Source: Moritella sp. JT01 | GTDB taxonomy: Bacteria; Pseudomonadota; Gammaproteobacteria; Enterobacterales; Moritellaceae | Assembly: GCF_001574435.1 (NCBI RefSeq) | Contig: NZ_LOCN01000011.1 | Span: forward strand, 62,001 to 126,000 | Reading direction: 5' to 3' | DNA length: 64,000 nucleotides | Part shown: piece after piece, positions 1,485 to 5,092 of the stretch | Layout: the number at the start of each line of letters is the position of its first letter | Numbering within the stretch: position 1 is the first letter of the stretch | Notes under the pieces: model-generated | What the model saw: the letters and a program-made list of their open reading frames with translations, nothing else | Told to the model about the DNA's origin: nothing | Databases searched by the model: none | Translations under genes and position numbers: made by a program

Positions 1485-3113
1485 ATGCACTTAAAAAAGT
1501 TAAGTTTCTTAACTATTTTACTGCTATCTCTCGGCTTAGCAGGCTGTGGTAGTGATAACTTAGACGCAGTTACAAGTGGCTCTGGTGATTCAAGCTCTGG
1601 TACTGATACAACTGATACAGACTCTGGTGATAATGGTGACTCCGGTGGCGATACTGATAACGGTAGTAACGAAGATAGTGTTTACACTGCCAGTGGTAAT
1701 TTCACACCAAAAATTATCCAACGCGGGCAAACATTTACTTTCAACTATTACTTAGATAAAACACCTGATGCTGCCATTATTTACGATATTGACATTGTCG
1801 GCACCGCTATCCAAGGTACAAACCAAGATTACACCATCAGTAATGCTTCAACCCTTACCTTTGCTAAAGGCTCAACTACAACAAGCCTCACTATCACCAC
1901 CTATCAAAAAGATGATATATACGATGCGCGAACCCTGTCATTAACGCTTACTGGTAATACCGGTGAACCCGCAACAATTAATCTCCTCATCTCAGGTAAT
2001 GTTTATCTTAATGATACTGGTATTACAACTTACTCTGACGGCAGCTCTTTCGATATACAGACTCAAGCTAATGATAAATATAAGCAACAAGATGCAGCTT
2101 ATGGTCTTGATATCATCATTAATTCAGCCGCAACAGAACCTGATACAGGTGATAAGAAAGATGATCAAAAACAACTTTATAAAAACGCATTTGACGTAAA
2201 TCCAAGTGATTCAGAATATAAAGGCAAAGCTGGGTTCCGCTTCGTTAAAATAACAAATAATGGTACGCCTGTTGTTGCAGATAGCACGAGTTATGAATGT
2301 GTGACAGATGAAGTAACAGGATTAACTTGGCAGGTAAAAGGCCCTCAGAACATTATTACCCATGAATCAAAATCTGCTCCTGATGATCCAGACGTTTATA
2401 CAATGGCCGATGTTCAAAATTATAAAGCATCTAACTTTCAATATCCTTGGCAAGCATCAAAATTAGGTACTGAAGGACTAGGGTGGTATTTGGGCCTAAA
2501 TAAAGCAGCATTAGATGAAGGCGCCGAAGAAGGGGCGCATTATGCAAACCAAGCATGTGGTTATCCAAATGAGGGGCGTAATGGTTCAGATGTCGAGGGG
2601 CTTACCTTAACTTGCTCAACAGGCAGCTATGCAGACGAAGTTAATCGACTCGGCGTTTGTGGTAAAACAAATTGGGTTATACCGAGTGTCGAACAATTAC
2701 GCAGTATCCTCAATTATAATGACGTAGTTGATTACTCAGCAATTACTGGCATACAAAATCATGCACTTGATAATGCTTTCTTTGATTGTAAAAGCACGAA
2801 TAATTGCGTTATAGAAAAAAACTATATTACCGAATGCTTTTTTGTTATTGATGAAAATGACGATGTTGTTTTAGATATAAATGGCAATCCAACTTCTCAT
2901 TGTGTGCCACTAATAAGTGATAATCCAGACCCAGTTTATTGGACATCAAATCAAGTCAAAAGCTCAGAGCAGCTAGCATGGTGTGTGAACCTACAGACAG
3001 GTAGCGTGAACAAGTGTCATAAACGTGAATATCATCGAGTATTAGTAGTCAGTAGCAATGTTCCAACCGAGTTCTTTACCTCTATAACGACCACTAATGA
3101 TTCAGCAGAATAG
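1485..3113 (+). CDS. DUF1566 (Lcl C-terminal-like) surface lipoprotein
   Basis: This is a probable outer-membrane lipoprotein of unknown function. The signal peptide ends in the lipobox LAGC with Cys21, followed by Gly at +2, so there is no inner-membrane retention signal. Residues 22-66 are a low-complexity Ser/Gly/Asp/Thr linker. Residues 70-180 look like a Calx-beta-type immunoglobulin-like domain (tandem beta strands, IDIVGTAIQGTNQDYTI). Residues 270-530 match the DUF1566 pattern: a GLTWQVKG start, cysteines, NWVIPSVEQLRSIL, YWTSNQV, and a C-terminal YHRVLVVSS. Members of this family are secreted or surface proteins, and one relative is the C-terminal part of a Legionella collagen-like adhesin. 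The RBS AAGG lies 7 nt upstream. The next gene, 11 nt downstream, carries the same domain. The cysteine content (at least 10 after Cys21) suggests disulfides. Adhesion is only a guess. Confidence 0.72.
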   Translation: MHLKKLSFLTILLLSLGLAGCGSDNLDAVTSGSGDSSSGTDTTDTDSGDNGDSGGDTDNGSNEDSVYTASGNFTPKIIQRGQTFTFNYYLDKTPDAAIIYDIDIVGTAIQGTNQDYTISNASTLTFAKGSTTTSLTITTYQKDDIYDARTLSLTLTGNTGEPATINLLISGNVYLNDTGITTYSDGSSFDIQTQANDKYKQQDAAYGLDIIINSAATEPDTGDKKDDQKQLYKNAFDVNPSDSEYKGKAGFRFVKITNNGTPVVADSTSYECVTDEVTGLTWQVKGPQNIITHESKSAPDDPDVYTMADVQNYKASNFQYPWQASKLGTEGLGWYLGLNKAALDEGAEEGAHYANQACGYPNEGRNGSDVEGLTLTCSTGSYADEVNRLGVCGKTNWVIPSVEQLRSILNYNDVVDYSAITGIQNHALDNAFFDCKSTNNCVIEKNYITECFFVIDENDDVVLDINGNPTSHCVPLISDNPDPVYWTSNQVKSSEQLAWCVNLQTGSVNKCHKREYHRVLVVSSNVPTEFFTSITTTNDSAE

Positions 3114-3124
3114 GAGCAAATAAT

Positions 3125-3700
3125 ATGAAGAAGTCAAAATTATTACTTATTAGTACCACTTTATTTGCTGCAAGTACTTTTGCTGCATCGGATCCCGTTA
3201 ACTTAAACTGTGACCCTCTATTAGATCAGGAATATTCAACATTCGAATTCATTGATAATCTTAATGGTACAGTGACAGATTTACGGACCAGCCTTATCTG
3301 GGCCAAATGTACCCTTGGTCAAACTTATATTTTAAGCACAAACTCTTGCTCAAGTGCGGGTGCTGAAAATTATCTAGACTGGGGAGATGCGCTATCAGCC
3401 GCGGCATCTTATGAAGTAAATAATATTTCGGACTGGCGTATGCCCAATATTAAAGAGTTAGGTTCCTTGGTTGATCGCAGTTGCGCTGCACCAACAATTA
3501 ACTTAACGCTGTTTCCGAATACTGTATCCAGTATTTATTACTCAAGTACACCATTCAAAGGCAGTAGTGTTGATGCAAATTATGCCCATCTTGTATCGCG
3601 AGTCATTAATTTTTCTGATGGTACAGAAATGCCGCTAACGACACCAGAAAGTTCGAACACCAGCTATGTAGTGCGTGCTGTAAAGGGCGGTTATAACTAA
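3125..3700 (+). CDS. Secreted DUF1566 protein, partner of the upstream lipoprotein
   Basis: A 191-residue exported protein with a Sec signal peptide (MKKSKLLLISTTLFAASTFA, probably cleaved before ASDP). The mature part is a compact DUF1566 domain: FIDNLNGTVTDLRTSLIWAKC, a WGDALSAA helix, DWRMPNIKELGSLVDRSC, YYSSTPFKG and a terminal SYVVRAVKGG. It shares the W-R-(I/M)-P-N/S-(I/V)-x-(E/Q)-L signature with the C-terminal half of the gene 11 nt upstream, so the two are probably co-transcribed and related by duplication of the domain. It has no lipobox, so it should be periplasmic or released. Four mature cysteines could form two disulfides. Function unknown. Confidence 0.7.
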   Translation: MKKSKLLLISTTLFAASTFAASDPVNLNCDPLLDQEYSTFEFIDNLNGTVTDLRTSLIWAKCTLGQTYILSTNSCSSAGAENYLDWGDALSAAASYEVNNISDWRMPNIKELGSLVDRSCAAPTINLTLFPNTVSSIYYSSTPFKGSSVDANYAHLVSRVINFSDGTEMPLTTPESSNTSYVVRAVKGGYN

Positions 3701-3778: not shown

Positions 3779-4696
3779 TTAAATAAGCGCTAATTCGACC
3801 ATGGCGGCACGAATTTCATCTTTGGTACCTTGGGTCAGTTCAATCACAGGTAAACGGCACTCAGGTTCACACAAGCCTAATAATGACACGGCATACTTAA
3901 CACCTGCTGGGCTTGTTTCTTTAAACATTAAGTTATGTAGCGTAATCAAACGATCTTGCAGTTCTCTCGCTTCTACATATTTACCCGCAAACGTTAATTC
4001 CTGCACTTCTGCATACAGTTTTGGCGCCACATTAGCAGACACCGAAATTAAGCCATTACCACCAGACACATTATAAGCGACCGTTGTGCAATCATCGCCA
4101 GATAGGAAAGAGAAGTCACCTTTAATCAATTGACGCTCTAACCAAGGGCGCGACAGATCCCCCGTTGCATCTTTAATACCGACAACATTTTCCAATTCCG
4201 CCATACGTGCTAACGTTTCTGGTTGGATATCAACAATTGCACGGCCTGGAATGTTATAAACAATAATAGGTAAGTCATTGTTATCATTAATTGCTTTAAA
4301 ATGTTGATATAAACCTTCCTGGCAAGGTCGGTTGTAATAACCCGCAACATGCAAAGTTGCAATAGCACCAGCAGCTTGTGCATGATTAGATAACATGATC
4401 GCGTCGGTTGGATTATTTGAACCCGCGCCGGCAATAACCGGTAAACGACCAGCCGCTTGGCTCACCACGATATCCAGGATCTGGCAATGCTCTTCTAATG
4501 ACAGCGTTGGGCATTCACCCGTTGTGCCTACTGCAACAATACCATGCGTACCCTGCTCGACATGCCAGTCAACGAGGTTACGTAATGCTGGTTCATCAAT
4601 TTTATTATTTTTAAACGGGGTAACCAAAGCAACAATTGAGCCTTTAAGTAATTTTTTCATTGCTGATTTATCGGTGACCGTTGAGTTAACACTCAT
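3779..4696 (-). CDS. dapA: 4-hydroxy-tetrahydrodipicolinate synthase
   Basis: DapA condenses pyruvate with aspartate semialdehyde, the first committed step to diaminopimelate and lysine. The 305-residue protein has the aldolase-type TIM-barrel motifs: GTTGE with Thr58/Thr59, Tyr121 in YYNRP, Tyr147 and Arg152 in VYNIPGR, and the Schiff-base Lys175 in VGIKDATGD. A GGAG RBS 5 nt before 4696 supports this start, which adds about 14 residues to the E. coli N-terminus. The body (IPGRAIVDI, DLSRPWLERQ, SPAGVKYA) resembles the alphaproteobacterial form as I remember it more than E. coli DapA. The E. coli VTPYYN is VAGYYN here. Upstream, on the same strand, lie a promoter, a Lys-rich short reading frame and a terminator that suggest attenuation. 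A related aldolase of the family cannot be excluded, but all catalytic residues are present. Confidence 0.88.
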   Translation of the reverse strand: MSVNSTVTDKSAMKKLLKGSIVALVTPFKNNKIDEPALRNLVDWHVEQGTHGIVAVGTTGECPTLSLEEHCQILDIVVSQAAGRLPVIAGAGSNNPTDAIMLSNHAQAAGAIATLHVAGYYNRPCQEGLYQHFKAINDNNDLPIIVYNIPGRAIVDIQPETLARMAELENVVGIKDATGDLSRPWLERQLIKGDFSFLSGDDCTTVAYNVSGGNGLISVSANVAPKLYAEVQELTFAGKYVEARELQDRLITLHNLMFKETSPAGVKYAVSLLGLCEPECRLPVIELTQGTKDEIRAAMVELALI

Positions 4697-4716
4697 AGAA
4701 GCTCCATTTCGGTTAT

Positions 4717-4753
4717 AAAAAAACCTCGATTACATAAATTGCGGTCGAGGTTT
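4717..4753 (-). terminator. Intrinsic terminator inside the dapA leader (attenuator candidate)
   Basis: On the minus strand AAACCTCGA (4753-4745) pairs perfectly with TCGAGGTTT (4729-4721) across a 15-nt loop. The stem runs into seven T (4723-4717). It lies downstream of the dapA promoter and only about 20 nt before the dapA start codon, so it must be bypassed for dapA expression. TCGAG at 4777-4773 can pair with CTCGA (4749-4745) of the 5' arm, a possible 5-bp antiterminator. Confidence 0.72.
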
Positions 4754-4785
4754 CTATAGGGATTTATATGTTCTCGAATCACATG

Positions 4786-4839
4786 CTACGTGGGCTTTAA
4801 TTTGCCTTGTTTATCTTGTTTTCGTTTTAAATTAAGCAT
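4786..4839 (-). CDS. Putative Lys-rich dapA leader peptide
   Basis: ATG at 4839 opens a 17-codon frame, MLNLKRKQDKQGKLKPT, ended by TAG, with five Lys codons. It begins about 50 nt after the predicted dapA transcription start and ends 32 nt before the intrinsic terminator, the usual geometry of ribosome-mediated attenuators. A small hairpin CACGT-AGC-ATGTG (4792-4780) covers its stop codon. The RBS is weak (GAG 8 nt upstream). An overlapping frame, MRIPHA, starts at 4852 and ends inside this one. The leader is A-rich, so the lysines could be chance; translation is not demonstrated. Confidence 0.42.
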   Translation of the reverse strand: MLNLKRKQDKQGKLKPT

Positions 4840-4894
4840 GTGGTATTCTCATTTTGATGAAAAAAACATTCAAACGTTTATTATTTATCGTTTA

Positions 4895-4923
4895 ATAATT
4901 CTTCATTCACCGCAAAATGTCAA
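4895..4923 (-). promoter_or_regulatory. Sigma-70 promoter of dapA
   Basis: On the minus strand, a perfect TTGACA (4923-4918), a 17-bp spacer and AATTAT (4900-4895) predict a start near 4888 and a leader of about 190 nt. That leader contains the Lys-rich frame and the terminator. Confidence 0.6.
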
Positions 4924-5092
4924 GCAGGATAATGCATAAGAAAAATCAAACCTGACTAGCCTTCGAAGTAAAGCGATACCCAGCAACGTCTGGATGGACA
5001 ATCAGCACACCGAAAGGAGAGGATATTGAAGTAGTTTGGGTATATACTCTCCGGCCAAATCTTCGACCAAATTAAGTAAAGAGTCCAGACCC
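4924..5092 (+). other. rsmC upstream region with a leader hairpin
   Basis: This is the rsmC side of the divergent dapA/rsmC interval. It has an imperfect inverted repeat: GGAGAGGATAT (5016-5026) and ATATACTCTCC (5042-5052), 10 of 11 positions paired around a 15-nt loop. I see no confident plus-strand promoter. A TTG at 5036 is in frame with rsmC, but it would add 19 residues not found in E. coli RsmC. Confidence 0.4.

Follow-up and report, generated by a model that had tools for sequence, protein, structure and literature searches.

A putative lysine-codon attenuator upstream of dapA in Moritella and other gammaproteobacteria

Leader-peptide attenuators are textbook regulators for tryptophan, histidine, threonine, leucine, isoleucine/valine and phenylalanine, whereas the control of lysine has been ascribed to riboswitches, T-boxes and regulator proteins. 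A list of known leader-peptide attenuators comprises trp, his, leu, thr, ilvGMEDA, ilvBN and pheA, with no lysine case among them (PMC1183508), and where RNA-level control by lysine is named it is the L-box and not an attenuator (PMC1262725). In Sinorhizobium meliloti, an aspartate-related gene has within its 5' UTR the short frame SEP5, which contains Thr and Lys codons and is suggested to encode a leader peptide (PMC10117765). The main text of a survey of Shewanella RNAs does not mention dapA (PMC2659441). No earlier report of a Lys-codon leader or attenuator for dapA was found in the open full-text literature that was searched, and as far as found in the same literature lysine has not been reported as the regulatory amino acid of a leader-peptide attenuator.

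The window (the whole stretch of 64,000 nucleotides of Moritella sp. JT01 that was analysed) carries dapA on the minus strand, preceded by a promoter, a 17-codon frame, a spacer and a terminator, with rsmC (identified by its profile match to NF007023) divergent on the other side. A sequence-only reading of this DNA had proposed an attenuator of the trp/his/ilv type here, composed of a promoter with a perfect TTGACA, a 17-codon frame with five Lys codons and a strong intrinsic terminator between this leader and dapA, and each of these elements was found at the minus-strand position that it had given:

4895 to 4923, minus strand: promoter, with TTGACA at 4923-4918, a 17-nt spacer and AATTAT at 4900-4895 (10 of 12 matches)
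4786 to 4839, minus strand: leader peptide frame of 17 codons, ATG at 4839 to TAG at 4786, MLNLKRKQDKQGKLKPT, with five Lys at codons 5, 7, 10, 13 and 15
4836 to 4842, minus strand: region 1, CACAUGC at the start codon, pairing with 4786-4780; putative protector (anti-antiterminator)
4773 to 4786, minus strand: region 2, GCAUGUGAUUCGAG, directly 3' of the leader; its partner is region 1 or region 3
4740 to 4753, minus strand: region 3, the 5' arm of the terminator, in which CUCGA (4749-4745) and CGCA (4743-4740) pair with region 2
4717 to 4753, minus strand: regions 3 and 4, the intrinsic terminator, with its stem at 4753-4721 and a T-run of seven T at 4723-4717
3779 to 4696, minus strand: dapA, encoding 4-hydroxy-tetrahydrodipicolinate synthase (305 aa, TIGR00674 equivalog), the proposed controlled gene

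The T-run lies about 20 nt upstream of the dapA start, and the hairpin segment of the terminator is predicted to fold with -15.2 kcal/mol. Folding of the leader RNA beats 198 of 200 shuffles (z -2.85). The Shine-Dalgarno sequence of the Moritella leader consists of GAG only, in agreement with the weak ribosome-binding site that had been entered as a caveat. The window DapA scores 311.8 bits against TIGR00674 (cut-off 206), and the closest named record is the DapA of Moritella sp. DT_65, which is 97% identical; outside the genus, the nearest proteins are those of Aeromonadaceae, at up to 69%. Moritella encodes a second DapA protein, 43% identical, and inspection of the region upstream of its gene (beside a bamC-like gene) revealed no comparable leader. 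On the plus strand, two adjoining genes for secreted-protein-like products (1485-3113 and 3125-3700), partly alike, end convergent with dapA.

The antiterminator had been put forward as a 5-bp pairing of TCGAG (4777-4773) with CTCGA (4749-4745). This pairing is present, but it is longer than suggested, with UGUG (4783-4780) and CGCA (4743-4740) extending it to nine pairs in total. The small hairpin described over the leader stop is superseded, the conserved pairing being a long-range 7-bp stem between 4842-4836 and 4786-4780. Since UGUG 4783-4780 is shared by the antiterminator and the 7-bp stem, the predicted pairings 1:2, 2:3 and 3:4 are mutually exclusive. In the mechanism that we propose, RNA polymerase would start at about 4888 and a ribosome would begin the 17-codon leader. 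With lysyl-tRNA in ample supply, this ribosome would reach the UAG and cover region 2, which after ribosome release could pair with the start-codon region (region 1); region 3 would then be free for region 4, and transcription would stop at the T-run, short of dapA. Under a shortage of lysyl-tRNA, the ribosome would stall on the Lys codons, with region 1 covered or held apart from region 2, allowing the 2:3 pairing to form in place of the terminator and dapA to be transcribed. From the sequences and the modelled folds, we consider it very probable that the dapA 5' leader works by ribosome-mediated attenuation of transcription, with charged tRNA-Lys as the signal sensed, and we infer that the leader is translated, that ribosomes stall on it and that read-through responds to lysine.

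The strength of the antiterminator was calculated, for different positions of the ribosome, as how firmly the terminator's 5' arm is held by RNA transcribed ahead of region 4; the footprint assigned to the ribosome and the use of equilibrium folding are simplifications. In the terminator-bearing lineages, group-mean predicted strength drops from 7-11 kcal/mol for a ribosome on the Lys codons to 0.2-5 kcal/mol for one at the stop. The antiterminator of the window reaches 8.3 kcal/mol versus 1.9+-1.3 in shuffles, none of 100 being as strong, and placing the ribosome on the last Lys codon gives z of 3.7-5.2 against shuffled leaders for the five that were tested from Moritella. Over 28 sequences the median z is 3.0, the antiterminators of four of them (L058, L165, L169 and L180) being no stronger than shuffles. 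In the Aeromonadaceae antiterminator, GGUUACGC, from the arm and loop of the terminator, pairs with GCGUAACC. The stop codon is part of GCGUAACC, and a ribosome at the stop would directly cover region 2. In this family, 85% of cells are paired in the 2:3 antiterminator versus 27-38% when it is slid, and the terminator pairs in 96.5% of cells; compensatory changes are few.

Within the genus, all 11 Moritella genomes keep the promoter hexamers, the ATG, an indel-free frame, the TAG, the TCGAG and the terminator, whose sequence is nearly invariant. Lys residues K5, K7 and K15 of the leader are invariant and K10 and K13 nearly so, the number per leader ranging from three (as in G003) to six, and the 7-bp 1:2 stem is retained through G-U wobble in L004 and L005. 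Lys enrichment in the genus is modest (p = 0.017 in the window and 0.147 in the relative L012), synonymous changes taken within the genus only are hardly in excess (6 versus 4.6 expected), and in 1.6 Mb of G003 that were scanned chance Lys-rich frames before terminators outrank the three-Lys dapA leader. A claim built on Moritella alone would be weak, because of this modest enrichment and the chance Lys-rich frames before other terminators. It is the comparison with relatives that makes the case for more than chance convincing, the single sequence being only modestly unusual.

Absence of the Lys codons or of the terminator among relatives had been named as an observation that would count against the proposal. 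Both are kept in Moritella, in Aeromonadaceae and in further lineages. The orthologous dapA has a Lys-rich leader and an intrinsic terminator ahead of it in Aeromonas, Oceanimonas/Oceanisphaera, Tolumonas, Celerinatantimonas, a family designated f9, Marinobacterium and two Thiofilum-like lineages, and the leader-bearing genes always belong to the same DapA subfamily. Leaders upstream of dapA in these groups read as follows, each up to its stop codon:

Aeromonas: ...LKRKHKKSLKSGPADVRA
Oceanimonas group: ...VKRKSTKPLKRKAACFFA
Tolumonas: MSKWFIVRKPYKRASKPGAYVFA
Celerinatantimonas: ...STEKKTLPKKALKLL (five Lys, no Arg)
Marinobacterium: ...HLKRKSDKPGVSPAARWCVVA
Thiofilum-like lineage: MFCNVPVKVKVKKRFLCGMARWFVAE

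The leaders outside Moritella are mostly 40-53% G+C and show no sequence alignment with those of Moritella. In the terminator-bearing lineages a GC-rich hairpin is followed by a T-run, the distance from the stop to the T-run being 42-68 nt, and the other families have different but equivalent terminators in place of that of Moritella. Upstream of the Aeromonadaceae leaders, TTGACA-N17-AANNAT matches the layout of the Moritella promoter. A covariance model of the Aeromonadaceae element (R1) has one strong match (E < 1e-10) per genome in 30 of the 31 genomes of this family, and wherever the position of dapA is known the match lies immediately before it; the match in G452 lies near the end of a contig stretch in which no dapA was called, and the sole negative genome has no dapA of the leader-bearing subfamily. 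Searched against Moritella and the other families, R1 gives weak matches only and does not recognise the Moritella element. As it recognises Aeromonadaceae alone clearly, the model is family-specific, and because it misses the Moritella element, the case for homology among the families is made from position, design and the DapA tree and not from RNA sequence.

When 76 DapA proteins are placed in a maximum-likelihood tree, the 32 rows with a leader all group within one clade of 44 rows (support 100/96), and leader presence requires five label changes on the tree versus about 25 in shuffles. Succinivibrionaceae and Woeseiaceae lie inside this clade yet have no Lys leader. The pattern suggests an apparent single origin of the leader design, with apparent losses, along one DapA clade. 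In the Woeseiaceae MAG L040, a GC-rich terminator precedes dapA and the short frame before it is nearly without Lys codons, possibly as a result of decay or because it serves another signal. In Marinomonas (L048, L050, L053, L054, L057 and L061), a Lys-rich leader (KRNGDKRKAKK) stands before dapA without a T-run terminator, and a conserved CCGGCAGC...GCTGACGG hairpin lies upstream of dapA, its GCTGACG occurring also within the leader. There is an even chance, in our judgement, that these leaders represent an old lysine-attenuator class which was inherited with one DapA subfamily over several gammaproteobacterial orders, was repeatedly lost and has at least two outputs, i.e. intrinsic termination in most lineages and, in Marinomonas, a terminator-free (Rho- or translation-based) one. 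At the positions which we take to be lysine feedback residues (A49, S48 and H53 in E. coli numbering; window DapA 58-70 aligned with E. coli DapA 44-56), A49 is replaced by P in most of the clade, and S48 by C and H53 by L in Moritella. Part of the role of feedback inhibition of DapA may be taken by control of transcription.

The identity of the sensed amino acid can be approached through the coding properties of the leaders. In 21 distinct leaders of the Oceanimonas group, the proposed frame has 47 synonymous changes versus 35 expected, the other two frames being as expected, and each of the five Lys columns is conserved in 18-21 of the 21 leaders where many other columns drift. Over the last 18 leader codons Lys accounts for 22.9%, and against dinucleotide shuffles with free frame choice built in, most of the lineages tested show it enriched, with p at about 0.001-0.02. 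An improbable alternative is that the frame is a regulatory uORF which works through the same RNA switch and responds to a signal other than lysyl-tRNA, such as nascent-peptide arrest by the basic KRK motif, Arg, or the general speed of translation. The Arg of this motif is indeed conserved across Moritella, Aeromonas and Oceanimonas, and Arg ranks third among the residues in frequency (9.3%). However, Arg reaches enrichment at p < 0.05 in only one of 19 tested, and the Celerinatantimonas leader manages without it. Moreover, Arg codons can be kept for the RNA, because the first Lys-Arg-Lys codons in Oceanimonas (an AAACGnAAA stretch) pair with region 2 and the stop region, and in Tolumonas CGAAAAC pairs with GUUUUCG there. 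The controlled enzyme, in addition, produces a lysine precursor. Arg as the sensed amino acid was rejected, as it is not enriched versus shuffles; with Lys enriched beyond shuffles and Arg not, lysine is most likely the amino acid that would be sensed.

It is very unlikely that the frame is meaningless, i.e. that the 5' UTR is simply A-rich and the terminator constitutive or otherwise regulated, the short transcript perhaps being an sRNA. The A-rich leaders of Moritella and the chance Lys-rich frames before other terminators would fit such an explanation, but the same design recurs at 40-53% G+C, the frame and its Lys columns are conserved over drifting residues, and the antiterminator is reproducible and tied to the stop codon. 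Control could also be exerted on translation of dapA instead of on termination, through leader translation opening the ribosome-binding site or through re-initiation. Marinomonas, with its Lys-rich leader and no T-run terminator, gives this idea some footing, and another output probably exists there for that reason. For Moritella and nearly all other leader groups, in which a strong hairpin and T-run stand between leader and dapA, we regard it as extremely unlikely. The attenuator of the trp/his/ilv type that had been proposed is thus supported by the conserved design, the Lys columns, the Lys enrichment and the predicted dependence of the alternative pairings on ribosome position. What the analysis shows is the set of elements and how they are conserved, the enrichment of Lys and, as predicted, the mutual exclusion of the pairings.

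Other forms of lysine control were searched for at the locus and elsewhere in the genome. The L-box family (RF00168) has no match at gathering score in the window and none up to E=5 in 4600-5000, and with the same two thresholds neither the T-box nor any other Rfam family matched at the locus. On the Aeromonas leaders, Rfam families give weak matches far below the cut-offs, including Trp_leader at 17 bits. The only L-box of the genome (L193, G000:C11:144791-144976) lies upstream of an NhaC-type antiporter gene, and not of lysC or dapA; this gene probably encodes a lysine transporter. The regions upstream of the monofunctional aspartokinase gene and of lysA of Moritella were inspected and no Lys leader was seen. 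The bifunctional aspartokinase gene of this genome (G000:C7:53584-54957) is preceded by an ordinary thr leader (L286), in which an intrinsic terminator stands behind the Thr/Ile-rich MTYCLAFITTTIINTVITTVG; the organism therefore appears to make use of leader-peptide attenuation.

If dapA is indeed controlled by a conserved attenuator with Lys codons, lysine would join the amino acids served by leader peptides, and a further way would be known of controlling an enzyme that supplies peptidoglycan synthesis as well. It would moreover offer a simple genetic read-out of lysyl-tRNA charging, and the leader design is also present in tractable genera, e.g. Aeromonas.

Among the described systems, the L-box resembles the dapA leader in providing RNA-level control of lysine genes by lysine, but the dapA locus has no RF00168 match. 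SEP5 differs in being mainly a Thr frame (six Thr with three Lys), in preceding another gene and, in the passages devoted to it, in having no terminator/antiterminator model (PMC10117765). The thr leader of the same genome shares the short frame and the terminator and differs in its Thr/Ile codons and its gene for bifunctional aspartokinase. The closest likeness is to the trp, his, thr, leu, ilv and pheA attenuators of proteobacteria, which have a frame with codons for the pathway amino acid, exclusive 1:2, 2:3 and 3:4 pairings and a terminator before the first structural gene. The dapA leader likewise has a conserved short frame in which Lys codons are enriched and conserved, an intrinsic terminator between leader and structural gene (Marinomonas, without a T-run, being the exception) and, as predicted by folding in all but four of the sequences tested, an antiterminator stronger than in shuffles that would be governed by the ribosome and exclude the terminator. 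It differs from these attenuators in its Lys codons and in its gene, dapA, and whereas the his leader has long codon runs the dapA leaders are mixed, with about 23% Lys. It would nevertheless work like leader-peptide attenuators and, by all features testable here, appears to belong to them.
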